Below are positions 4,613 through 44,884 of a DNA stretch of 64,000 bases, one piece after another. The translations under genes were made by a program, and so were the position numbers. The first letter of the stretch is position 1; the number at the start of each line of letters is the position of its first letter. The stretch spans positions 32,933 through 96,932 of the forward strand of contig MWYY01000058.1 in the NCBI GenBank assembly GCA_002050355.1, in the 5' to 3' direction. The notes beneath the pieces are model-generated. The model saw only the letters and a program-made list of their open reading frames with translations, was not told the origin of the DNA and did not search any database. This stretch comes from Acidobacteria bacterium 28-9. Its GTDB lineage: Bacteria; Acidobacteriota; Blastocatellia; Pyrinomonadales; Pyrinomonadaceae.

Positions 4613-5812
4613 TCAATTTTTATAAGGAACTATTTTTCTTATAGCTTCTTCACTCTTTTCAGCTTTAGCTTTTAATGCTTTTTGATACCTTTCTTCCAAA
4701 GGTTGGGTAATGGCAAAAATATCCGAGCCAACGTATTCAGCCCAAACTTTTTTATCAATTACATACTCAACAAGAAGTTTTTCTCCAAAAAACATCATGT
4801 TTGCTTTGTTACCTTTTACGCTAATACATCTTGTGTGATTTCCGTCGCCGCCAACATAATATTTATTTGGAATTAAGGTTACATCACCCTTCGACCTCAT
4901 ATTAGTAAAAATTTGTTTCGCAACTCCTAGACAAATATCTAGGCAGGCTTGATGAGCTTGAATTGACTCAACCAAACTTACTTTTGGGTCACCGTATCTT
5001 ACACCAGCAGGGCATTGAATAAGGCTCAAAACTATTTCTGGAATTTCACGAAGCCCGGAATTTTTAGCTTGCTCTGCGAGCATTTTCAAGTCATGTCCAA
5101 AGGGAAATTTATCATTCCTTTCCTCAATATAAGCCTTGATAATTTTTTCGGTTGCTTGTAAAGATGACCATTTTGAAAGACCATATTGAGGCGGATTAGT
5201 AAAAATGTGGCTTACTGCCGCATCTATATCTCCCTTTGCTTGTTGAATCAGAACATTATCAGTCAATGCTTCCAATTCGCATCTAGCATCATTCCCAAGT
5301 CTGAAACTGTCAAAGATACTTTTTAATTCTTCATTTTTGAGATTTTTAATATATTCTTTCGTAATATCATCAATCAAATTAAGGATATTTACCTCTGGAA
5401 GTTTTCTATTTGTGCCTATTGTCGGTGATTTTAATTTGCCAAAATTCTTAATCGAACATGTTGCTACAACTGCGCCGAGAATAAGTGGAAGCCGCATTCT
5501 GTAAGCGTCACCACGAATTAAAATTGCCATCTTCCAAGTTGGATCAAATTTTAATTTGTCGCCATATTTATTATCAAACCATTGACGAATCCTATTAGTA
5601 AGGTCATCGCCTTTGTAGCTTCCTTCAGTTATAGTTTTTTTGAATGGCGGAGCAACAAGATTTAATCCAAAACGAGAAGAAATATTGAGCCAAGCGTGTA
5701 ACGGTCTTTGAAAAATTAAAAGACCTTTTTTGCATAATTCTTCGTCAACGGATTCCATCAATTCTTGAAAGTCTTCTTCATTCTTTACGTCATATTTTTC
5801 TGTTGCTTTCAT
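4613..5812 (-). CDS. Hypothetical protein with possible HEPN-like segment
   Basis: 399 aa ORF; segment LSKWSSLQATEKIIKAYIEERNDKFPFGHDLKMLAEQAKNSG resembles HEPN pattern; flanked by hairpin. Confidence 0.6.
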   Translation of the reverse strand: MKATEKYDVKNEEDFQELMESVDEELCKKGLLIFQRPLHAWLNISSRFGLNLVAPPFKKTITEGSYKGDDLTNRIRQWFDNKYGDKLKFDPTWKMAILIRGDAYRMRLPLILGAVVATCSIKNFGKLKSPTIGTNRKLPEVNILNLIDDITKEYIKNLKNEELKSIFDSFRLGNDARCELEALTDNVLIQQAKGDIDAAVSHIFTNPPQYGLSKWSSLQATEKIIKAYIEERNDKFPFGHDLKMLAEQAKNSGLREIPEIVLSLIQCPAGVRYGDPKVSLVESIQAHQACLDICLGVAKQIFTNMRSKGDVTLIPNKYYVGGDGNHTRCISVKGNKANMMFFGEKLLVEYVIDKKVWAEYVGSDIFAITQPLEERYQKALKAKAEKSEEAIRKIVPYKN

Positions 5813-5832
5813 AGGAGTTTTGAATAGTGCCT

Positions 5833-5862
5833 AGAGTGGATATTTGTTTTAAATATCCACTC
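5833..5862. terminator. Terminator-like hairpin
   Basis: AGAGTGGATATTT-gtttt-AAATATCCACTCTTTT. Confidence 0.5.
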
Positions 5863-5869
5863 TTTTATA

Positions 5870-6094
5870 TTAAATCTCAACCTTCTCAATCACACCAACC
5901 CAATGTTCCGCCGTCAGATTGTTACGGGCGAATTCCGCAATCAAGTTAAAAACCTGGTCGGAAAATCCGCCGACGTTCAAAATGTCGGCTCGTTCTTTGG
6001 CTTTCGTGTGCGCGTAAGGCTGGATGTCAATGCAGACGAGTTTCGCGTCTTTGTTTCGAGATTTGAACTCGTTCCACTGTTTTATCGTTTTCGT
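5870..6094 (-). pseudogene. C-terminal remnant of TROVE/Ro60 (Rsr-type) protein
   Basis: Reverse-strand translation TKTIKQWNEFKSRNKDAKLVCIDIQPYAHTKAKERADILNVGGFSDQVFNLIAEFARNNLTAEHWVGVIEKVEI*; matches the VWA-like end of bacterial TROVE proteins; N-terminal part absent, thiL follows. Confidence 0.72.
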
Positions 6095-7218: not shown

Positions 7219-7776
7219 ATGGGACAATTTGCAACTGCAATACCGGAAAAAATATTCTTTAAAATTGGTGAAGTATGTGATTTAGTTGGCGTGCAGGCGC
7301 ACGTTTTACGCTATTGGGAAACCGAGTTTCCGATGCTTTCACCGCAAAAAAATCGTTCCGGTCAGAGAAGTTACCGGCGACGCGATGTCGAAATTGCCCT
7401 GCGCGTTAAAGAACTTCTTTATGAAGACCTTTATACAATCGCCGGGGCGAAGAAAAAACTGCAAACCGAATTGCGCGAATCAAATCGCTTGAAAATCGTT
7501 CATTCCGAATCGGTGCCGAAAGAAAGTTTTATAAAAGAAGTTAAGATGCCCGACACGCAAGAAGAACAGTTCGTTGGAGGAGAATCGGTTAAAGCAGAAG
7601 GCGTCTTGGAGTTTGAAGATATTGAAGATTTTCAGGAAAGTAAACCTATCGAAATGAACGAAGATCGACGTGAGGCTTTAACACATCTTGCCGCGCAACT
7701 GCTCGAACTCAGGGAAATGTTAAAGACGAAAAATTCCGAAGACCAGAGCAGTCAGCAAAGAAATTATCGAGTTTGA
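7219..7776 (+). CDS. MerR family transcriptional regulator
   Basis: [45 protein letters not shown]. Confidence 0.92.
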
Positions 7777-7815
7777 CAAAAATTCAATTCATTTCTAAGC
7801 TGAATAAATCCGTAA

Positions 7816-7889
7816 CGGAACGTAGCGCAGCCTGGTAGCGCGCTTCCTTGGGGTGGAAGAGGTCGTGAGTTCGAATCTCGCCGTTCCGA
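7816..7889 (+). tRNA. tRNA-Pro(GGG)
   Basis: CGGAACG acceptor, anticodon arm CTTCC-TTGGGGT-GGAAG, TPsiC GTTCGAATC, closing CGTTCCG. Confidence 0.95.
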
Positions 7890-7964
7890 CGCCTTTTAAT
7901 AAATAAAATAAAAAGATGGTTGCAATCCGGCGGCGCAGCTCCGGTTTTTGCAGCCATTTCCCCC

Positions 7965-8208
7965 TCAGTTCACCCCGTTTGATTCCTGCACTTTTTCGTC
8001 CAGAGAATTTACCGCCTCAAACATTCCTTCCAAATCCGACTGCGCGTAAATTTTAGTTATTGCCAAATCCGAATGCGCGAACAAATCCTGTATGATTAGC
8101 GGATTAACATTTCGCCGTATAAGCTCGGATGCCATTTCGCGGCGCAAATCGTGAAAATGAAAATTTGCTTCGCGCGTATCATCTTTTTTATTTATTTTCG
8201 CGTTGATT
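7965..8208 (-). pseudogene. Tyrosine recombinase/integrase C-terminal remnant next to tRNA-Pro
   Basis: FHFHDLRREMASELIRRNVNPLIIQDLFAHSDLAITKIYAQ retains HxLR, H and Tyr boxes; N-terminal catalytic region absent. Confidence 0.78.
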
Positions 8209-8691
8209 TTAGAGAACGTCCTCGCTTGGCAATTCGACTTGTTCGGGCGTTATGCCGAACATTTTCTTGTGCAGACGACTTACAAGAAATTGGTCGAAGA
8301 AAATAATAATTGCTCCGATAACGACACAAATTACGCCGAAAAACGGTCCAACCGAAAAACTTTCACTGCCGAGACCGCCACGATTCTTAAAGGACGAAAA
8401 CGCCTCGTCAAACCAAAATGTTTGAAGGATTATAAAAATTGCAAAATACAAAAATGTCGTCCATAAAGCCCACGATTGTTGAACTCTCCAATACAAAACA
8501 TTTGCTAAAACCAGCAGAAGTATCGAGGAAAGCCAGAGAAACAACCAAGCCAAATTCGAATAGTATTCATAGTTTTGAACAACATTTACCGGCGCGTCAA
8601 TGCTGGTTAACCAGTTGTAGGAATAAAAACTCAGAGAAGTTATAACTAACAACGCGATTGCCAAGGCAACTAGATATATTTTGCTCCACAT
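8209..8691 (-). CDS. Hypothetical membrane protein (about 4 TM)
   Basis: Hydrophobic segments across 160 aa. Confidence 0.7.
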   Translation of the reverse strand: MWSKIYLVALAIALLVITSLSFYSYNWLTSIDAPVNVVQNYEYYSNLAWLFLWLSSILLLVLANVLYWRVQQSWALWTTFLYFAIFIILQTFWFDEAFSSFKNRGGLGSESFSVGPFFGVICVVIGAIIIFFDQFLVSRLHKKMFGITPEQVELPSEDVL

Positions 8692-26914: not shown

Positions 26915-27314
26915 TAGTAAAAATTAGTGAAAACCACAACCGCAGTAAAACCTCCGACCAAGACGCTCAACACCCAGCATATTACGGTTGCTCTGGCGGG
27001 AAATCCTAACGCCGGAAAGACCACGCTTTTTAACGCTTTGACCGGTATGCGGCAAAAGGTCGCCAATTATCCGGGTGTAACGGTCGAGCGAAAAGAAGGT
27101 TTCTGGCGTTTGGACAGCGGAAAAAAAAACTTGCATTTAATAGACATTCCGGGTCTTTACAGTCTCGATGCAACTTCTCTGGACGAGCAAATCGCGCGTG
27201 ATGTTTTGACGGGGAAAATTGCCGGTTTGCAAAAACCCGATATCATCATTGCAGTCGTTGACGCGACCAATCTCGAACGAAATCTGTATCTCGTAACCCA
27301 GCTTCTCGAATATA

Positions 27315-27919
27315 AAATTCCCGTTGTTATTGCATTGACAATGATTGACGCGGCAGAAAAACAAAGTATTGAAATAGACACGAAAAAACTTGCCTCGCTA
27401 CTGCGAGTTCCTGTCGTTAGTATCAACGCCAAACACAAAATTGGTACCAGAAAGCTTGCCGAAGTTGTATTAAAAGCTGTTGACACCGCACAAATTCCTC
27501 ATCCGGCATGGCTATCGGAGACTGGTTTCGATGATGTAATTCACTTGAGTTTAACGGACGACGCCAAAGTTAACCGCCCGATTTTCGCGCGCTATAATTT
27601 TATTTCCGACGTTTATCAGGAGACAGTCAAACCGAAAGACACACAGGAGAGAAGCATTTCTGAAAAAATTGACCGCATTTTAACGCACAAATTTTTCGGT
27701 CTCGTGATTTTAATTGGAATTTTGCTGCTCGTTTTCCAGACGATTTTTTCGTGGGCGAGTTTGCCGATGGATTTGCTGGAACAAGGTTTCGGCTCGCTCG
27801 GCAATTTTTTACACGCACAAATGTCCGAAGGCATTTTGACCGATTTGATTGTTGACGGCGTAATTGCGGGAGTCGGCGGCGTACTGGTCTTTCTGCCTCA
27901 AATCCTGCTGCTGTTTTTG
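27315..27919. repeat. 605 bp tandem repeat, copy 1
   Basis: Same sequence as 27920..28524; offset 605 at both boundaries. Confidence 0.93.
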
Positions 27920-28524
27920 AAATTCCCGTTGTTATTGCATTGACAATGATTGACGCGGCAGAAAAACAAAGTATTGAAATAGACACGAAAAAACTTGCCT
28001 CGCTACTGCGAGTTCCTGTCGTTAGTATCAACGCCAAACACAAAATTGGTACCAGAAAGCTTGCCGAAGTTGTATTAAAAGCTGTTGACACCGCACAAAT
28101 TCCTCATCCGGCATGGCTATCGGAGACTGGTTTCGATGATGTAATTCACTTGAGTTTAACGGACGACGCCAAAGTTAACCGCCCGATTTTCGCGCGCTAT
28201 AATTTTATTTCCGACGTTTATCAGGAGACAGTCAAACCGAAAGACACACAGGAGAGAAGCATTTCTGAAAAAATTGACCGCATTTTAACGCACAAATTTT
28301 TCGGTCTCGTGATTTTAATTGGAATTTTGCTGCTCGTTTTCCAGACGATTTTTTCGTGGGCGAGTTTGCCGATGGATTTGCTGGAACAAGGTTTCGGCTC
28401 GCTCGGCAATTTTTTACACGCACAAATGTCCGAAGGCATTTTGACCGATTTGATTGTTGACGGCGTAATTGCGGGAGTCGGCGGCGTACTGGTCTTTCTG
28501 CCTCAAATCCTGCTGCTGTTTTTG
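27920..28524. repeat. 605 bp tandem repeat, copy 2
   Basis: Same sequence as 27315..27919. Confidence 0.93.
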
Positions 28525-29637
28525 TTTATTTCGATTCTCGAAGATACGGGTTATATGGCGCGCGCAGCTTTTTTGCTCGACAAACTGATGAGCCGCGTCG
28601 GGCTGCACGGCAAAGCGTTTCTGCCGCTGATGTCGAGTTTCGCCTGCGCGATTCCAGGCATTATGGCAGCGCGCACTATTGAAAATCCTAAAGACAGACT
28701 GGCGACGATACTTATTGCTCCGTTTATGAGTTGTTCGGCGCGTCTGCCGGTTTATACGTTGATGATTGCGACGTTTTTCGCAGGTCAAACCGTTTTTGGC
28801 TTCATTTCGCTCGGTGCAATTTTGGTCTTGGCGATGTATGCGCTCGGAATTGTCGTGGCGGTCGGAGTTGCTTTTATCCTGAAACGCACTCTTTTAAAGT
28901 CGCCGCCGCCGCCCTTCGTAATGGAATTGCCGCCGTATCGCCTGCCAAATTTCCGCGCTGTTTTTCAAAATATGTTCGTTCGCGCCGGTTTATTTTTAAA
29001 ACGCGCCGGTACGGTAATTTTGGCGATTTCGATTTTGCTCTGGGCATTGACTTATTTTCCGCGAAGCGCTGATGTTAAAAGTTCAGCGTCGATTGTCCAA
29101 AACCAGGAACAATCTGAAACTTCAAATCTGAACCCGGAAATCGTTCAGGAAGGAGCGCAAATTCAAAACAGCTACGCCGGAATGCTGGGACACGCCATTG
29201 AACCCGTCATTCGCCCGCTCGGTTTTGACTGGAAAATTGGCGTCGCTTTAATCGCTTCGTTCGCGGCGCGCGAAGTTCTTGTTTCGACTCTAAGCATTAT
29301 TTACAACGTCGGGAAAGACGCCGACGCTGAAAACGAAACTTTAATTCAGGCTGTTAAAGAAGCAGAGCGAGACGACGGAACTCCTGCCTGGACGCCTTTG
29401 ACCGCACTGACATTAATGGTCTTTTTTGTTCTGGCGATGCAGTGTATGTCAACGGTCGCCGTCGTCCGACGCGAAACCAATTCGTGGGCGTGGGCGCTTT
29501 TTATGGTCGGTTATATGACCGGTTTAGCGTATTTGGCGGCGTTTTTAACGTATCAGGGCGGAAAATTTTTAGGTTTCGGATAATTAGTCGGTTAGCATTA
29601 CGCGGCAAAACTTGCGGCGATTGCTGCAGATAAAATT

Positions 29638-29822: not shown

Positions 29823-29936
29823 GTCTAACGGCACAGTTGACACGGGGCGAAACCAGCTACACGCAATTCTGAGTTTAACGTAGGACGTTTTTAAGAAAAT
29901 AGCTGTCTCGCGCTCACGTCCAATGATTTGTTCGAC
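29823..29936 (-). repeat. attC-like site C1
   Basis: GTCTAAC...GTTCGAC ends; imperfect palindrome with TTGAC versus TTGGAC extrahelical base; shared core with C2 and C3. Confidence 0.78.
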
Positions 29937-29945
29937 AGCCCGTGA

Positions 29946-30611
29946 TTAGAAGAAATCGTTTTCACGGTCAAAACTATCTCTGTCGGGCGCACAACAATCG
30001 TCTTTGCCTAACTCGACTTGCGGACTTGTTATATTTACTCCGTCTTTTAATGTAATTTCAAATTGATTTGCTTTCTTTCCCTCTGGCATTGTGGCTTTGC
30101 TTCCAAAGCGTTCTTTTGATTCTGCAAACTCACCCTGACACGAAAGCCACCAAATAAAAGGAAAACGCAAATCGATAGAAGCGTTTGGTTCTACGTCAAA
30201 CAATACAATTTTGTTATCGGTAGTTTCGATTAGCAGATAGCTTATTCGGTTAGCCGAGTTGTTTGTAACTTTAATACTGCCAAAAATGTTTTCTGCATCT
30301 TTGGCGTTTCTGCCTATTCTCAAGATTGAATCCGAACTCCAAGAGTTATCAGGATACCGACTTTTAAAGTCACCGTCGAACCAATCGCCTGTGTAAAGCA
30401 GTTTCTGATTTACAAATTGCTTCTCGTTTTGATAAGCGTTCAAATATACACGACGTTCGATAAGATAATTCTCCTGAACAATTTCGACTTTAGTTTGGTT
30501 AGCTGGCGATTCGGTTGAATAAAGTTTTTCACTCCAATAAGCGCAAGCCGAATTTAGAGCAATAAAGGCGATAATTGAAAAAGCAATAATGGTGCGGTTT
30601 TTATTACTCAT
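29946..30611 (-). CDS. Cassette-borne putative lipoprotein, unknown function
   Basis: Hydrophobic N-terminus ending LNSAC; stop abuts C1. Confidence 0.7.
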   Translation of the reverse strand: MSNKNRTIIAFSIIAFIALNSACAYWSEKLYSTESPANQTKVEIVQENYLIERRVYLNAYQNEKQFVNQKLLYTGDWFDGDFKSRYPDNSWSSDSILRIGRNAKDAENIFGSIKVTNNSANRISYLLIETTDNKIVLFDVEPNASIDLRFPFIWWLSCQGEFAESKERFGSKATMPEGKKANQFEITLKDGVNITSPQVELGKDDCCAPDRDSFDRENDFF

Positions 30612-30641: not shown

Positions 30642-30724
30642 GTCGAACTTTGTATTCTAATGAATTACGGCTTTCTTATACAGAATTTTTATACTGTAAT
30701 TCCAAAGTCAAAGTCAATAAAAAT
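30642..30724 (-). promoter_or_regulatory. attI/Pc-like boundary B1
   Basis: Minus strand TTGACT-18-TATAAA ... AATACAAAGTTCGAC; highly similar to B2. Confidence 0.68.
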
Positions 30725-30889
30725 TCTAATTATCACTTTACTCCAGGATCGGAAATAATTCAGTGTAAATTTTTACGCTTAATAATTTCCGCAAAGTTTT
30801 TCCGGTTCATATTCTTGACGCTGCGGCGCGTTTGCTCTAACTTGATTCAAGTCTTTTACAAATTTTTCCTGAAATAATAAAATTCATCA

Positions 30890-31744
30890 ATGACAAATCG
30901 TATTCACCGCGAAGTAATCGGCGGTCATCTTCTGGTTATCGGCGGCGCGGAAGATAAATATAACGAGCGGCGAATCTTGAAAAAATTTCTTTCTCTGGCG
31001 GGCGAAGAAAATGCAGAGGTTTTAATTGTACCGGTAGCTTCGGATTTTCCCGAGTTTTCGGCGGACGTTTATGTTCAAGCCTTTCGCAATCTCGGCGTTA
31101 AACATCCGCGCGTATTGCGCGCTACTTCGCGGCAGGACGTTTTTGAAGCTGACGCCGAAGCCTTACTCGACGGCGTTACCGGTGTTTTCATAACCGGCGG
31201 CGACCAGATGCGGCTGGTGTCGGTTCTCGGCGGCACGAATTTCGCGCAGATATTAAGCGAGATGGTTTCTGAAACGAATATCGTCGTCGCCGGAACGAGC
31301 GCGGGTGCTGCCGGAATGAGCGCTTCGATGATTGTGCGCGGCGAATCTACTCCGCACCCGCACAAAAATTCCGTGCGTCTCTCGCCGGGTTTGAGTTTCT
31401 TGAAAAACATCATTATCGACCAGCATTTTACGGAACGCGGGCGCATCAGCCGGTTGATTACGGCGGTTTCTTACAATCCGTATAATCTCGGCATCGGGAT
31501 TGACGAAAACACGGCAATAATTCTCGACAATGAAGGAATTTTAGAAGTTTTCGGCAAAGGCACGGTTACAATAGTCGACGGCTCGCAGATAACTTATAAC
31601 GAAATTGCTGAAGTAAGCGAATATCAACCGTTTAGCGTATGCGGCGTGCAGCTTCATATCCTGGGCGACGGATTAAATTACGATTACTTTGCACGGAATC
31701 CCATACGAATAACCAATGAATTTTTACTGCCTGACATAGAATAA
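30890..31744 (+). CDS. cphB: Cyanophycinase
   Basis: GGHLLVIGGAEDK, FITGGDQMRLV, VVAGTSAGAAGMS. Confidence 0.93.
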   Translation: MTNRIHREVIGGHLLVIGGAEDKYNERRILKKFLSLAGEENAEVLIVPVASDFPEFSADVYVQAFRNLGVKHPRVLRATSRQDVFEADAEALLDGVTGVFITGGDQMRLVSVLGGTNFAQILSEMVSETNIVVAGTSAGAAGMSASMIVRGESTPHPHKNSVRLSPGLSFLKNIIIDQHFTERGRISRLITAVSYNPYNLGIGIDENTAIILDNEGILEVFGKGTVTIVDGSQITYNEIAEVSEYQPFSVCGVQLHILGDGLNYDYFARNPIRITNEFLLPDIE

Positions 31745-31806
31745 TGGTGATTGATTAATGGAAAATCAGTAATTCACCATTTATCAATCACCATTTACCA
31801 TTAAAT

Positions 31807-34443
31807 ATGAAAATTCTCGAAATCAGAACGCTTCGCGGTCCGAATTATTGGAGCGGTTACTGGAAAAAGCTGATAATAATGCGGCTCGACATTGAAGACT
31901 ACGAGCAGAAGCCGACCGACAAAATCGAAGGTTTTTACGAGCGAATGACGGAGGTTTTGCCGTCGCTCGCTTCGCACGGATGCAGCTATCAGGAAGCCGG
32001 CGGATTTATGCGGCGCGTCGAAGAAGGAACTTGGGCGGGACACGCCATCGAGCATTTTGCGCTGGAAATGCAGTCGCTCGCCGGAATGGATGTCGGTTAC
32101 GGCAGAACGCGCGAAACATCCGAGCCGGGAATTTACAACGTCGTTTTTGCTTATCAGGAAGAAGAAGTAGGACGATTTACGGCTCGCGCCGCAGTTGAAT
32201 TTTTTCTCGATTTAGCCGAAGGAAAATCGGTCAAAGAAATAAAAAAACGCCTCGCCGAAGACATCCAGCGAATGCGCGAAATCCGCGAGGAAGTTCGCTT
32301 CGGACCAAGCACGGCTTCGATTGTCGAAGAATCCGAATCGCGCAATATTCCGTTTATACGGCTCAATAACCAATCGCTCGTCCAGCTCGGTTACGGCATT
32401 CACCAGCAGAGAATTCAAGCGACGACAACCGGCAAAACCAATATGATTGCGGTTGACATCGCGGCAAACAAACACGCAGCTAAAAAGCTTCTGAGTGAAA
32501 TGGGCGTTCCGGTTCCGATAGGCTTCAGCATCCGCGACGAAGACGAACTGGAAAGAACAATCGAATCAATCAGCTTTCCCGTCGTAATAAAACCGCTCGA
32601 CGGCAATCACGGCAAGGGCGCAACCGTGGGCATCGAAACTTTGGAAGAAGCGCTCACGGCATTTCAAAAAGCGAAGGAATATTCGCGCAATGTCATTGTC
32701 GAAAAAATGCTTGTCGGAGGCGATTTTCGCGCGCTTGTTGTCAATAATGATTTGATTGCCGTTGCCGAGCGGATTCCGGCGCACGTAATCGGCGACGGCA
32801 AAAATACCATCGAACAATTGATTGACGAAACAAACGCCGACCCGCGGCGCGGCTACGGACACGAAAATGTGCTGACGTTAATTGACGTTGACGAGCAAAC
32901 GGAGAGACTATTACGGGCGAAAAATTACACGCTCGAAACAATTTTGCCGGCAGGCGAAATGCTGCATTTGAAAACGACGGCTAACATTTCAACCGGTGGC
33001 ACGGCGATTGACCGCACGGATGAAGTTCATCCCGAAAACATTTTTCTGTTTGAACGTATTGCAAAAATCGTCGGCTTGGATGTCGCCGGAATTGACGTTA
33101 TCGCGCCGAATGTTTCCGAACCTTTGAGCGAAAACGGCGGCGGAATTATCGAAATAAATGCCGCGCCCGGTTTTCGTATGCACCTCGCGCCCAGCGAAGG
33201 CATCGGCAGAAACGTCGCCGAGCATGTCGTCAATATGCTGTTTCCGCCCGGAAAACCGGCTCGCATTCCGATTATCGCCATCACGGGAACAAACGGCAAA
33301 ACGACGACGACACGCCTGGTCGCGCACATCTTGCGCGGCAGCGGTTTGACCGTCGGTTTTACGACGACCGACGGCACTTATATTCAAAACAATCAAATCA
33401 CGGCGGGCGACAACACTGGACCTGTTTCGGCGCAATTGGTTTTAAAAGACCCTTCGGTTCAAGTCGCGGTTTTGGAAACGGCACGCGGCGGAATCATTCG
33501 CTCGGGTTTGGGATTTGACCATTGCGACATCGGAATTGTAACAAACATCGCCGCCGACCATTTAGGCTTGAAAGACATCAACACTCTGGAAGATCTTGCG
33601 CGAGTCAAATCGGTTATTCCGCGCTCGGTTTCGTCGAAAGGTTTTGCCGTCCTTAATGCCGAAGACGAAAATGTTTTCTGGATGCGAAAATATGTTGACG
33701 GTGAAGTCGTGTATTTTTCGATGGATGAAACGAATAAAAATATTCAAAAACACGCGCGGCGCGGTGGTGTTTCCTGCATTTTTGAAAACGGTTATGTAAC
33801 GATCTTAAAAGGCAAATGGAAAGTGCGCGTTGAAAAGGCGATAAACATTCCGCTCACTTACGGCGGGCGGGCGGAATTTATGATTCAAAACGTTTTGGCG
33901 GCGACTTTGGCGTGTTTCGTTCACAAAGTTTCGCTCGAAGACATCCGCGTCGGTTTAACGACCTTTACGCCTTCGACGGCACAAACGCCCGGACGAATGA
34001 ATTTTATCGAGATAAAAGATTTTACCGTTTTGATGGATTTCGCCCACAATCCGGCGGGAATAAAAGGCTTGCAAAAGTTCATCAACCAACTTTCATACAA
34101 AACGAGAACCGGAATTTTAAGCGGCGTCGGCGACCGGCGCGACGAAGATTTACGCGAAATGGGCAAACTCGCTGCGGAAACCTTCGATACTTTAATTATC
34201 CGTCGCGGCGATTACCTGCGCGGACGCACGGAAGAAAACGTTATTAATCTTCTGCAAGAGGGAATAAAAGAAAGCGGTAAAAACGTTCCGGTAAAAATTG
34301 TCCACGAATCGAAAGAAGCAATTGATTACGCTTTTGAAAACGCCGAAGCAGGCGATTTGATTGTAATATTAGCCGACACGGTGAGCAAAGATATTGAATA
34401 CGTTAATAAATATAGAGACGGACTAAACGAAAATAAAAATTGA
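31807..34443 (+). CDS. cphA: Cyanophycin synthetase
   Basis: ATP-grasp and Mur-ligase-like regions; ITGTNGKTTTTRLVAHIL. Confidence 0.95.
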   Translation: MKILEIRTLRGPNYWSGYWKKLIIMRLDIEDYEQKPTDKIEGFYERMTEVLPSLASHGCSYQEAGGFMRRVEEGTWAGHAIEHFALEMQSLAGMDVGYGRTRETSEPGIYNVVFAYQEEEVGRFTARAAVEFFLDLAEGKSVKEIKKRLAEDIQRMREIREEVRFGPSTASIVEESESRNIPFIRLNNQSLVQLGYGIHQQRIQATTTGKTNMIAVDIAANKHAAKKLLSEMGVPVPIGFSIRDEDELERTIESISFPVVIKPLDGNHGKGATVGIETLEEALTAFQKAKEYSRNVIVEKMLVGGDFRALVVNNDLIAVAERIPAHVIGDGKNTIEQLIDETNADPRRGYGHENVLTLIDVDEQTERLLRAKNYTLETILPAGEMLHLKTTANISTGGTAIDRTDEVHPENIFLFERIAKIVGLDVAGIDVIAPNVSEPLSENGGGIIEINAAPGFRMHLAPSEGIGRNVAEHVVNMLFPPGKPARIPIIAITGTNGKTTTTRLVAHILRGSGLTVGFTTTDGTYIQNNQITAGDNTGPVSAQLVLKDPSVQVAVLETARGGIIRSGLGFDHCDIGIVTNIAADHLGLKDINTLEDLARVKSVIPRSVSSKGFAVLNAEDENVFWMRKYVDGEVVYFSMDETNKNIQKHARRGGVSCIFENGYVTILKGKWKVRVEKAINIPLTYGGRAEFMIQNVLAATLACFVHKVSLEDIRVGLTTFTPSTAQTPGRMNFIEIKDFTVLMDFAHNPAGIKGLQKFINQLSYKTRTGILSGVGDRRDEDLREMGKLAAETFDTLIIRRGDYLRGRTEENVINLLQEGIKESGKNVPVKIVHESKEAIDYAFENAEAGDLIVILADTVSKDIEYVNKYRDGLNENKN

Positions 34444-34551
34444 ACGGCGGAGTTGACGTGGCGCGAAACCATCTACACGCCAGCAAAGTATAACAGACAA
34501 ACTAAATAACAAAGTAGATATTTCTGCTTCACGTCCAATAAATTGTTAGAC
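34439..34551 (-). repeat. attC-like site C2
   Basis: TTGAACGGCGGAGTTGACGTGGCGCGAAACC...CACGTCCAATAAATTGTTAGAC. Confidence 0.75.
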
Positions 34552-34579
34552 AGTGTTTCACTTACAATAATTACTTGAA

Positions 34580-34607
34580 TTGACGTCCATTGAGTTGTTC
34601 GACAGCG
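34580..34607 (-). repeat. Extra attC-like half site (R''/L'')
   Basis: TTGACGTCCATTGAGTTGTTCGACAGCG matches right arms of C1-C3. Confidence 0.65.
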
Positions 34608-34661
34608 CATTGTCAGTAATGACTTCCAAAATCTGATACGCACTTCAAATGTAATTCTTAC

Positions 34662-35180
34662 TTACTGCAAAATGGATAAATATTCTTTCCAAACACCAAC
34701 ATTTTCGGAATACTTTTTCGCCAGAACGATGACGATTTGCCTAAGATGAGTTAAATCGTGAACAACCCAAGTTGAGAGAAGTTGTTCGAGATTTACTTCG
34801 CCCAATTCGGGATGAATTCCTTTCAGTTTTAATTGTTCTTCGGTGAGGCTCATCTGTTGAAGTTTTTCAAGATTTTCCTTTCTTAACCCAGCAAAAGTTT
34901 CAAGCAATTCGCTCAAAGATTTTCCCTCCGATTTTTCAAATTGCGCGAAGCGGTCAAACGGCAGGAATGTCCGATTTTCGCCCTGAGCGAGAATCATTTC
35001 GGCTCGCGGAATCCAGTCTGTTTCCTCGCCGTGTATAAAATGCCCAACGATGTCAAACGGATTCCAGTTTTCCGAATCTTCTTTTTCTGTCCAATCATCG
35101 GAAAGATTTCCGAGCAATAAATTTAAGGCTTCGGGCGTTTGACGCAAAATTTCGATGGCTTGTTCGATTTGAAATTTCAT
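34662..35180 (-). CDS. DinB-superfamily protein (cassette)
   Basis: NPFDIVGHFIHGEE, WVVHDLTHLRQI. Confidence 0.82.
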   Translation of the reverse strand: MKFQIEQAIEILRQTPEALNLLLGNLSDDWTEKEDSENWNPFDIVGHFIHGEETDWIPRAEMILAQGENRTFLPFDRFAQFEKSEGKSLSELLETFAGLRKENLEKLQQMSLTEEQLKLKGIHPELGEVNLEQLLSTWVVHDLTHLRQIVIVLAKKYSENVGVWKEYLSILQ

Positions 35181-35219
35181 CGTTTAATCTCCAAACAAGT
35201 ATAACAAACAATCGAAGCT

Positions 35220-35332
35220 GTCGAACGGTTGAGATGACGTGGGGCGAAACCGAATACACGCAACGTCGAGTTAAAAAGACAACGTAATAAAAGAGTCGCT
35301 GTTTCGTCCTCACGTCCAATGACTTGTTCGGC
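35220..35332 (-). repeat. attC-like site C3
   Basis: GTCGAACGG...GATGACGTGGGGCGAAACC...CTCACGTCCAATGACTTGTTCGGC. Confidence 0.78.
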
Positions 35333-35338
35333 TCGGCG

Positions 35339-35860
35339 TTATTTTCCATACGCCATTTCTGCCACAACTACGGGCAAGTTTGTTTCAATCAAAATGCGTT
35401 TATCAAGACCGCGCAAATACGCGCCTTCACCTTGTAGGGTTACTCCACAATCCGACAATGCCGCTTGTGCTTCTGTCGGAATACGCTCAACTGCCATTTT
35501 TATTTCGCCTAGAATTATTTCAACTTCCTTTGAAATTGCCGCGCTAATTTCGGCTTCCGTGACAGTCACGATTCGTGGAACTCTGGCTTCCGTATCGCGT
35601 CCGCGCACTTCCATTGAAAGCGTGTCGTCTTCGGGAAACGCGCTGCCAGCAGCGATTGTGATGGCTTCGGCTGTTCGCTCGCCAATGAGCAAGTTGAGAT
35701 TCCGACGAAAATGCTCGATAACCGCTTCGCCAAAAGTTTGAGTTCCAACGGGAAAACTGTGCGAATAAACAGTGCGTCCGTCAACTTCGGCGACAACTTC
35801 CGATTCTGTGATGCCGATGCTGGCTGTTACAAGCGTCGGTTTAAAGTTTTCAACTTTCAT
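35339..35860 (-). CDS. Truncated MreB-like (actin-fold domain II) protein (cassette)
   Basis: HFRRNLNLLIGERTAEAITIAAGSAFPEDDTLSMEVRGRDTEARVPRIVTVTEAEI...LQGEGAYLRGLDKRILIETNLPVVVAE resembles MreB C-terminal half. Confidence 0.75.
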   Translation of the reverse strand: MKVENFKPTLVTASIGITESEVVAEVDGRTVYSHSFPVGTQTFGEAVIEHFRRNLNLLIGERTAEAITIAAGSAFPEDDTLSMEVRGRDTEARVPRIVTVTEAEISAAISKEVEIILGEIKMAVERIPTEAQAALSDCGVTLQGEGAYLRGLDKRILIETNLPVVVAEMAYGK

Positions 35861-35890
35861 AACATCAACCGTCGAATTTTATAGGAAAGA

Positions 35891-35973
35891 GCCGAACTTT
35901 GTATTCTGCTGAATTAAAGTTTTCTTAGACCGAATTTTTTATAAGGCTTTTTTGGTCGAAAGTCAATAAAAAG
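35891..35973 (-). promoter_or_regulatory. attI/Pc-like boundary B2
   Basis: Minus strand TTGACT-17-TATAAA ... AATACAAAGTTCGGC; similar to B1. Confidence 0.68.
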
Positions 35974-36014
35974 CTTGATTTTGATTAGTGATTGAAGTAT
36001 CTTCGTGCGTAAAT

Positions 36015-36050
36015 AAAAAATTCCGCCTAAATTTTTAGGCGGAATTTTTT
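36015..36050. terminator. Terminator hairpin overlapping 3' end of iaaA
   Basis: AAAATTCCGCCTAAATTTTTAGGCGGAATTTTTTT. Confidence 0.65.
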
Positions 36051-44625: not shown

Positions 44626-44716
44626 TGGCGGAAAGGGTGGGATTCGAACCCACGGAACCCTTTTGAGGTTCACTACATTTCCAATGTAGCCAATTCAACC
44701 GCTCTTGCACCTTTCC
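44626..44716 (-). tRNA. tRNA-Ser(GGA), CCA encoded
   Basis: Reverse strand GGAAAGG...CTACA-TTGGAAA-TGTAG...CCTTTCCGCCA. Confidence 0.93.
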
Positions 44717-44794: not shown

Positions 44795-44884
44795 TGGCGG
44801 AGAGGGTGGGATTTGAACCCACGGTACCCGTTAAGGCACTCCGATTTTCGAGACCGGTGCACTAAGCCACTATGCGACCTCTCC
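44795..44884 (-). tRNA. tRNA-Ser(CGA), CCA encoded
   Basis: Reverse strand GGAGAGG...CCGGT-CTCGAAA-ATCGG...CCTCTCCGCCA. Confidence 0.93.

Follow-up and report, generated by a model that had tools for sequence, protein, structure and literature searches.

The stretch analysed here (hereafter the window) comprises 64,000 nucleotides of a contig from Acidobacteria bacterium 28-9 and carries on its minus strand two copies, B1 and B2, of one element of about 90 bp, which we predict to be integron attachment platforms (attI sites containing their own cassette promoter, Pc) that stand apart from any integrase gene (intI). The genome (G000) is a 3.65-Mb metagenome-assembled genome (MAG) that is 86.6% complete. 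The initial annotation had pointed to two similar boundaries on the minus strand, to TTGACT and TATAAA hexamers 18 or 17 bp apart and to a position directly 5' of the first cassette, and on all these points it was right: the shared cores lie at 30646-30736 and 35895-35985, the spacers measure 18 bp (B1) and 17 bp (B2), and in both cases a gene and then an attC-like site follow. As to the extent of the likeness, the core similarity stands, but past the GTT it continues for only a few bases and in the B1/B2 pair only, and an upstream dyad additionally belongs to the family. The parts of the two copies are as follows.

30646-30736, minus strand: B1, predicted intI-less attI/Pc platform (own-genome profile E=2.4e-19; orthologous copies in the relatives G003 and G005)
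30712-30717 and 30688-30693, minus strand: B1 putative -35 (TTGACT) and -10 (TATAAA)
30676-30686 and 30653-30665, minus strand: B1 direct-repeat-like units, ATTCTGTATAA and ATTCATTAGAATA
30646-30651, minus strand: B1 predicted crossover, AAAG|TT
30756-30785, minus strand: degenerate dyad upstream of B1, TTATTAAGCGTAAAAATTTACACTGAATTA, with 11/14 pairs
35895-35985, minus strand: B2, predicted intI-less attI/Pc platform (own-genome profile E=1.5e-19)
35961-35966 and 35938-35943, minus strand: B2 putative -35 (TTGACT) and -10 (TATAAA)
35925-35935 and 35902-35914, minus strand: B2 direct-repeat-like units, ATTCGGTCTAA and ATTCAGCAGAATA
35895-35900, minus strand: B2 predicted crossover, AAAG|TT
36018-36047, minus strand: 30-bp dyad upstream of B2, AAATTCCGCCTAAAAATTTAGGCGGAATTT, a perfect hairpin (z=-6.3) that overlaps the 3' end of an isoaspartyl-peptidase-like gene

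The element of which B1 and B2 are copies ends in AATACAAAG|TT. In both, the -10 is followed by AATTC..AGAATACAAAGTT, and the 3' ends read AGAATACAAAGTTCG(A/G)C, with the gene and its attC-like site right after. The sequence AATACAAAGTTCG has 2 exact occurrences in the window (0.21 expected with one mismatch allowed) and exactly 2 across the whole genome, and when the 210-bp regions around the two copies were aligned the similarity stretched further, upstream as well as downstream. Neither copy is part of a complete integron, as no intI was found in the window flanks of either platform.

The identity of the element emerges from related genomes, in which integron integrases were located independently via TIGR02249. 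In G002, G004, G005, G021 and G027 the element is divergent from intI and about 80 bp away from it, and in G001 a partial element adjoins intI:

G002:C184: element 7225-7310 (minus), intI 7392-8330 (plus)
G004:C253: element 4898-4982 (minus), intI 5066-6004 (plus)
G005:C1: element 1882224-1882311 (minus), intI 1882391-1883164 (plus)
G021:C15: element 93137-93224 (plus), intI 92112-93053 (minus)
G027:C44: element beside intI
G003:C17: element beside a broken intI

The integrases of the relatives are full-length, score over the TIGR02249 cut-off and possess the IntI-specific patch RKYPNAxxEWxWQYxFP along with the catalytic motifs. There the element lies where an attI is expected, between intI and the first cassette, while for B1 and B2 the assignment goes by homology and not by position. 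In nearly all copies AAAG|TT is followed by variable cassette starts (AGACGC, CGGCTC, GGGCGG), and the Y and R positions of the attI GTTRRRY box vary like those in the cassettes' own R' boxes. The element also contains two conserved repeats, ATTCGGTATAA and ATTCAGTAGAATA, about 21 bp apart, and this ATTC(G/A)GTA pair appears to resemble the layout of the direct repeats DR1 and DR2 in attI1 (PMC12901181). Judged by sequence and gene order, the element is an integron attI, and its TTGACT/TATAAA pair is the predicted Pc. The proposal in the initial annotation that a promoter-plus-crossover platform is dispersed without an adjacent integrase is supported accordingly, since relatives have this element as their intI-proximal attI and its intI-less copies number many more than two. 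A second type of integron integrase, truncated in G000 (G000:C43; L150, L038) and intact in G003 (G003:C72; L149), accompanies an array of the same attC family that has no attI element; the intI-proximal attI of the C43 array was considered as the source of B1 and B2 and rejected, because the intI piece there is of this second type and lacks the element.

A profile made from six element copies detected nine copies in this MAG on six contigs, seven of them at E <= 1e-14. Among 60 relatives it matched 8 of the 9 other genomes of the same genus as well as four further genera, and no genome outside the family. A wider profile run on 120 genomes of the family found the element in 17 of them, representing 7 of 29 genera, with 16 matches each in G004 and G005 (same genus as the MAG) and four in G070 from another genus; copies are fewer in the six other family genera than in the main Pyrinomonadaceae genus. 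In this group of soil Acidobacteria a single genome can hold up to about 16 copies, all but about one of them intI-less. The dispersed copies are conserved block by block, as expected if promoter and crossover are maintained: the blocks are the -35, the extended -10 and AATTCAGTAGAATACAAAGTT, the spacers between them vary, and the 17-18 bp between -35 and -10 are kept.

Cassettes accompany most of these copies. An attC lies within 1.8 kb behind 39 of the 50 intI-less copies with enough downstream sequence (median 612 bp), against a chance expectation of 0.02 per copy, and in G005, the best assembly, where three contigs hold most of the genome, 13 of the 19 attC clusters and 33 of the 42 attCs begin with the element. 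In our MAG itself, cassettes with attC are found behind 7 of the 9 copies and not, as the initial annotation had asked, behind all, and an adjoining intI is seen in relatives, this MAG having only broken ones. Boundary copies devoid of cassettes and unrelated to any attI, which would have told against that annotation, are not what we found: most copies head cassettes, and in several relatives a copy adjoins intI.

Upstream of most copies lies a dyad of about 30 bp, TAATTCGGCATAAATTTTTATGCGGAATTA, that is kept even where intI is missing. Of 60 copies, 43 have it at one of two positions relative to the crossover, -151 or -141, which differ by one helical turn. Covariation between its arms is modest (473 pairs versus a shuffle maximum of 466). 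Two distinct spacings of this kind point to DNA bound by a protein rather than to an RNA structure. The dyad may be an operator or an integrase site.

The cassettes behind B1 and B2 are:

29946-30611, minus strand: B1 cassette gene, 221 amino acids (aa), no Pfam or NCBIfam match
29823-29936, minus strand: predicted attC of the B1 cassette (R'' GTCGAAC ... R' GTTAGAC; 108 bits), the right end of the platform with feoB-side chromosome beyond
35339-35860, minus strand: first B2 cassette gene, 173 aa, like the C-terminal half of MreB/Mbl (PF06723, E=1.9e-32)
35220-35332, minus strand: predicted B2 attC 1 (R'' GCCGAAC ... R' GTTCGAC; 124 bits), whose bottom strand forms a long hairpin
34662-35180, minus strand: second B2 cassette gene, 172 aa, DinB_2 superfamily (PF12867, E=8.9e-14)
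34439-34551, minus strand: predicted B2 attC 2 (R' GTTCAAT; 104 bits)

Between the B1 and B2 arrays lies, on the opposite strand, a cyanophycinase/cyanophycin synthetase pair, and since the R' box of attC 2 (GTTCAAT) overlaps the cyanophycin synthetase stop codon, the B2 array ends exactly at cphA. The attC sites were assigned with a covariance model built from nine sites, all of which share its 17-pair structure and the R''/R' boxes; these boxes and the model conform to what is required of an attC (R'' RYYYAAC, R' GTTRRRY, inverted L boxes and a foldable bottom strand). The model yields about 85 matches in this genome, as arrays and singletons on many contigs. With two attC and no adjacent intI, B2 qualifies as a CALIN (cluster of attC sites lacking an integron integrase; at least two attC, no adjacent intI), and B1 stays below the two-site threshold because it has a single attC. 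We also noted a sequence of about 345 bp without a long open reading frame (ORF) that recurs at about 10 places in G000 and G004 (82-91% identical; L107 query 1874-2218, G000:C84:44418-44761, G000:C36:22253-22594, G004:C12:2182-2523), in some cases beside an attC, and that is perhaps an ORF-less cassette. On the far side of the B1 attC, feoB contains a perfect 605-bp tandem duplication (27315-27919 = 27920-28524; window 27315-28524), either real or an assembly artefact; the resulting frameshift leaves the gene as two ORFs, 26927-27943 and 27940-29583.

The platforms keep their places while their cassettes change. Loci with a common left flank form thirteen sets, most of which span more than one species and two of which span genera, and B1 itself is orthologous to G003:C67 and G005:C37:806k. 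G004 has a copy at the B1 site that is interrupted by foreign sequence, and a sequence starting GTGAATCAGTAGTAGAAAAC, probably an insertion sequence, is shared by G004:C154 (L163) and G005:C37 (L177), in or beside the B1-orthologous platform. At the three loci matched on both flanks (G000:C62/G005:550k, G003:C23/G005:471k and G001:C242/G005:1932k) the right flank picks up just past the last attC and the intervening cassettes do not align; at G005:550k a diverged attC is visible. Conversely, one cassette of about 750 bp occurs at three dispersed platforms of G005 with 95.6-96.1% identity. In G021 the genes flanking the G000:C62/G005:550k platform are adjacent and only 27 bp apart, which corresponds to an empty site; the B1 and B2 gene pairs are likewise present in G021 without platforms, at a divergence too large to fix the junction to the base. 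Flanks have also been exchanged between species, as G003:C67 joins the cphB left flank to the right flank of G001:C242 and G005:494k bears the feoB flank of B1, and this exchange argues that platforms act as rearrangement points.

A few loci bear on how the platforms may have spread. At G000:C22, 16 codons from the 3' end of intI survive next to the gene that in G005 adjoins intI, and G004:C17 retains an intI 5' piece; some platforms are accordingly integrons that lost intI, with convincing remnants confined to these 2 intI-less copies. Elsewhere the platform itself may have been moved. In G002 a 148-bp module next to intI, extending from the dyad to the GTT, is repeated on another contig with zero mismatches: on the left this copy starts at the TTCGGC inside the dyad and is joined to another attI as AAAG|TTCGGC, and on the right it ends at G|TT with different cassettes beyond. 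G004 has a second module after an attC, as G|TTAGGCGGAATT, and in G009 an attI lies inside an array. As these module ends resemble integrase crossovers, the platform may travel like a cassette, and we suggest, tentatively and with the odds slightly against us, that the dyad (^TTCGGC or ^TTAGGC) could be cut by IntI just like attI and attC, whereby Pc-attI would move in cassette fashion and seed new landing sites. The case for this route does not extend to most dispersed copies, whose dyad is complete and has A instead of G ahead of TTC.

We therefore favour, at a probability of about 0.82, the reading that B1 and B2 are integron attachment platforms (attI with built-in Pc, no intI) of a family that is scattered over the chromosome, exchanges its cassettes and is served in trans. 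At least one platform per lineage would be, or would have been, beside intI, and one intI gene, or two at most, would supply the integrase that acts in trans on all platforms, where it would recombine circular cassettes by their attC with the AAAG|TT crossover. The Pc of each platform would then drive its first cassette. Platforms retain their chromosomal places across species as the cassettes behind them turn over. The dispersal of the element, its homology to attI, its association with attC, its conserved promoter and crossover blocks and the turnover and sharing of cassettes can be read directly from the genomes compared; we infer from them the trans service by IntI, the promoter activity and the IntI-mediated platform spread.

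Several observations weigh against this interpretation. No attC was detected behind 11 of the 50 testable intI-less copies, and the folding energies of the attC sites in the window are unexceptional relative to shuffled sequences, with z-scores so weak that a thermodynamic proof of attC folding was dropped. Element identity is 68% between orthologous loci and 67% between paralogs; with orthologs no closer than paralogs, identity was discarded as a means of dating, and the dispersal is not datable from sequence alone. Finally, no sequence in this MAG (86.6% complete) both scores over the TIGR02249 cut-off and has the IntI patch: its two intI sequences are both broken, and since only such pieces were found, the platforms in the genome of B1 and B2 may now be inactive, frozen unless an intI sits in the missing part of the MAG.

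The best-placed competitor, which we regard as improbable, is a broken-up integron, in which whole integrons were duplicated or moved, or one array was scattered, intI was mostly lost, and the platforms are passive attI relics with fossil cassettes, i.e. CALINs that kept their attI. The intI pieces at G000:C22 and G004:C17, the rearrangement evident from the flank swaps at G003:C67 and G005:494k and the broken state of both intI sequences of this genome agree with such a history, yet convincing intI pieces occur at merely 2 intI-less copies and fossils would not give differing cassettes at orthologous platforms, a turnover that also speaks against simple fragments of one array. Nor would relics be expected to carry nearly the same cassette at three platforms within a genome or to show block-wise conservation of -35, -10 and crossover. 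Considerably less credible is a dispersed promoter repeat, akin to a miniature inverted-repeat transposable element or the promoter of a regulon, with a crossover-like end at which cassettes were inserted as at attG sites and with an incidental copy beside intI: the operator-like appearance of a dyad conserved at two spacings one helical turn apart and the few copies without a cassette behind would fit it, but the copies have nothing in common in their surroundings except the integron, be it intI to one side or attC to the other, and attG sites are divergent over many loci, yet the element here is homologous over about 90 bp with a fixed crossover. Chance likeness of two AT-rich promoters near cassettes, conceivable for AT-rich sequence with common sigma-70 hexamers, is ruled out for practical purposes by genome-wide profile E-values down to 1e-19 and by conservation at orthologous loci across species.

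Elsewhere in the window, two adjacent tRNA-Ser genes (GGA and CGA) at 44626-44716 and 44795-44884 are accompanied by flanking spacer repeats that are alike.

Integrons are usually seen as one platform that expresses just the first few cassettes. If many attI/Pc sites indeed coexist, a single integrase could hold many cassettes at once in first place, where they are expressed, genome-wide and beside ordinary genes, the platforms would be recombination points between distant chromosomal regions, and the action of IntI in trans at many attI sites would become a directly testable question. To our knowledge, routine searches do not look for attI sites beyond a few well-known integron classes, and dispersed attI sites would thus account for some of the intI-less attC clusters now filed as CALINs. 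Secondary integration sites of the attG kind have reportedly been described by Loot et al. (Nat Microbiol, 2024).

In reviews the integron platform consists of intI, one attI and Pc, and CALINs are arrays without intI ascribed to off-target insertion, intI loss or rearrangement. Dispersed homologous attI/Pc sites, or multiple or orphan attI, were not described in the literature searched, subscription papers being outside its reach. The system discussed here shares with sedentary chromosomal integrons of the Vibrio/Xanthomonas type an attC family that is uniform and specific to the host (45-92 sites per genome in better-sampled members of the genus), an intI divergent from attI, a Pc in the attI region and cassettes in one orientation, but those are described in the reviews with one attI, by intI, whereas here up to about 15 extra intI-less attI/Pc copies head arrays of their own. 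As in CALINs, which in Xanthomonas occur at conserved chromosomal loci (PMC12444791), arrays without adjacent intI occupy conserved chromosomal positions; CALINs are defined by attC and missing intI, whereas these arrays start with an attI/promoter homologous to the intI-proximal one. Genome-wide cassette insertion by a trans-acting integrase would be common to attG sites and our platforms, but attG are secondary targets over many loci that diverge from classical att sites (PMC12901181, PMC12444791), in contrast to homologous attI/Pc copies of about 90 bp with a fixed crossover. Lastly, in the ΔattI cassettes of class 1 and 2 mobile integrons, pieces of attI enter mobile cassettes and recombine under IntI1 (PMC12901181), so that there too attI pieces become mobile; in those cassettes the attI piece replaces the attC that ends a resistance cassette, whereas here a complete Pc-attI module heads chromosomal arrays, in one instance as an exact 148-bp copy.

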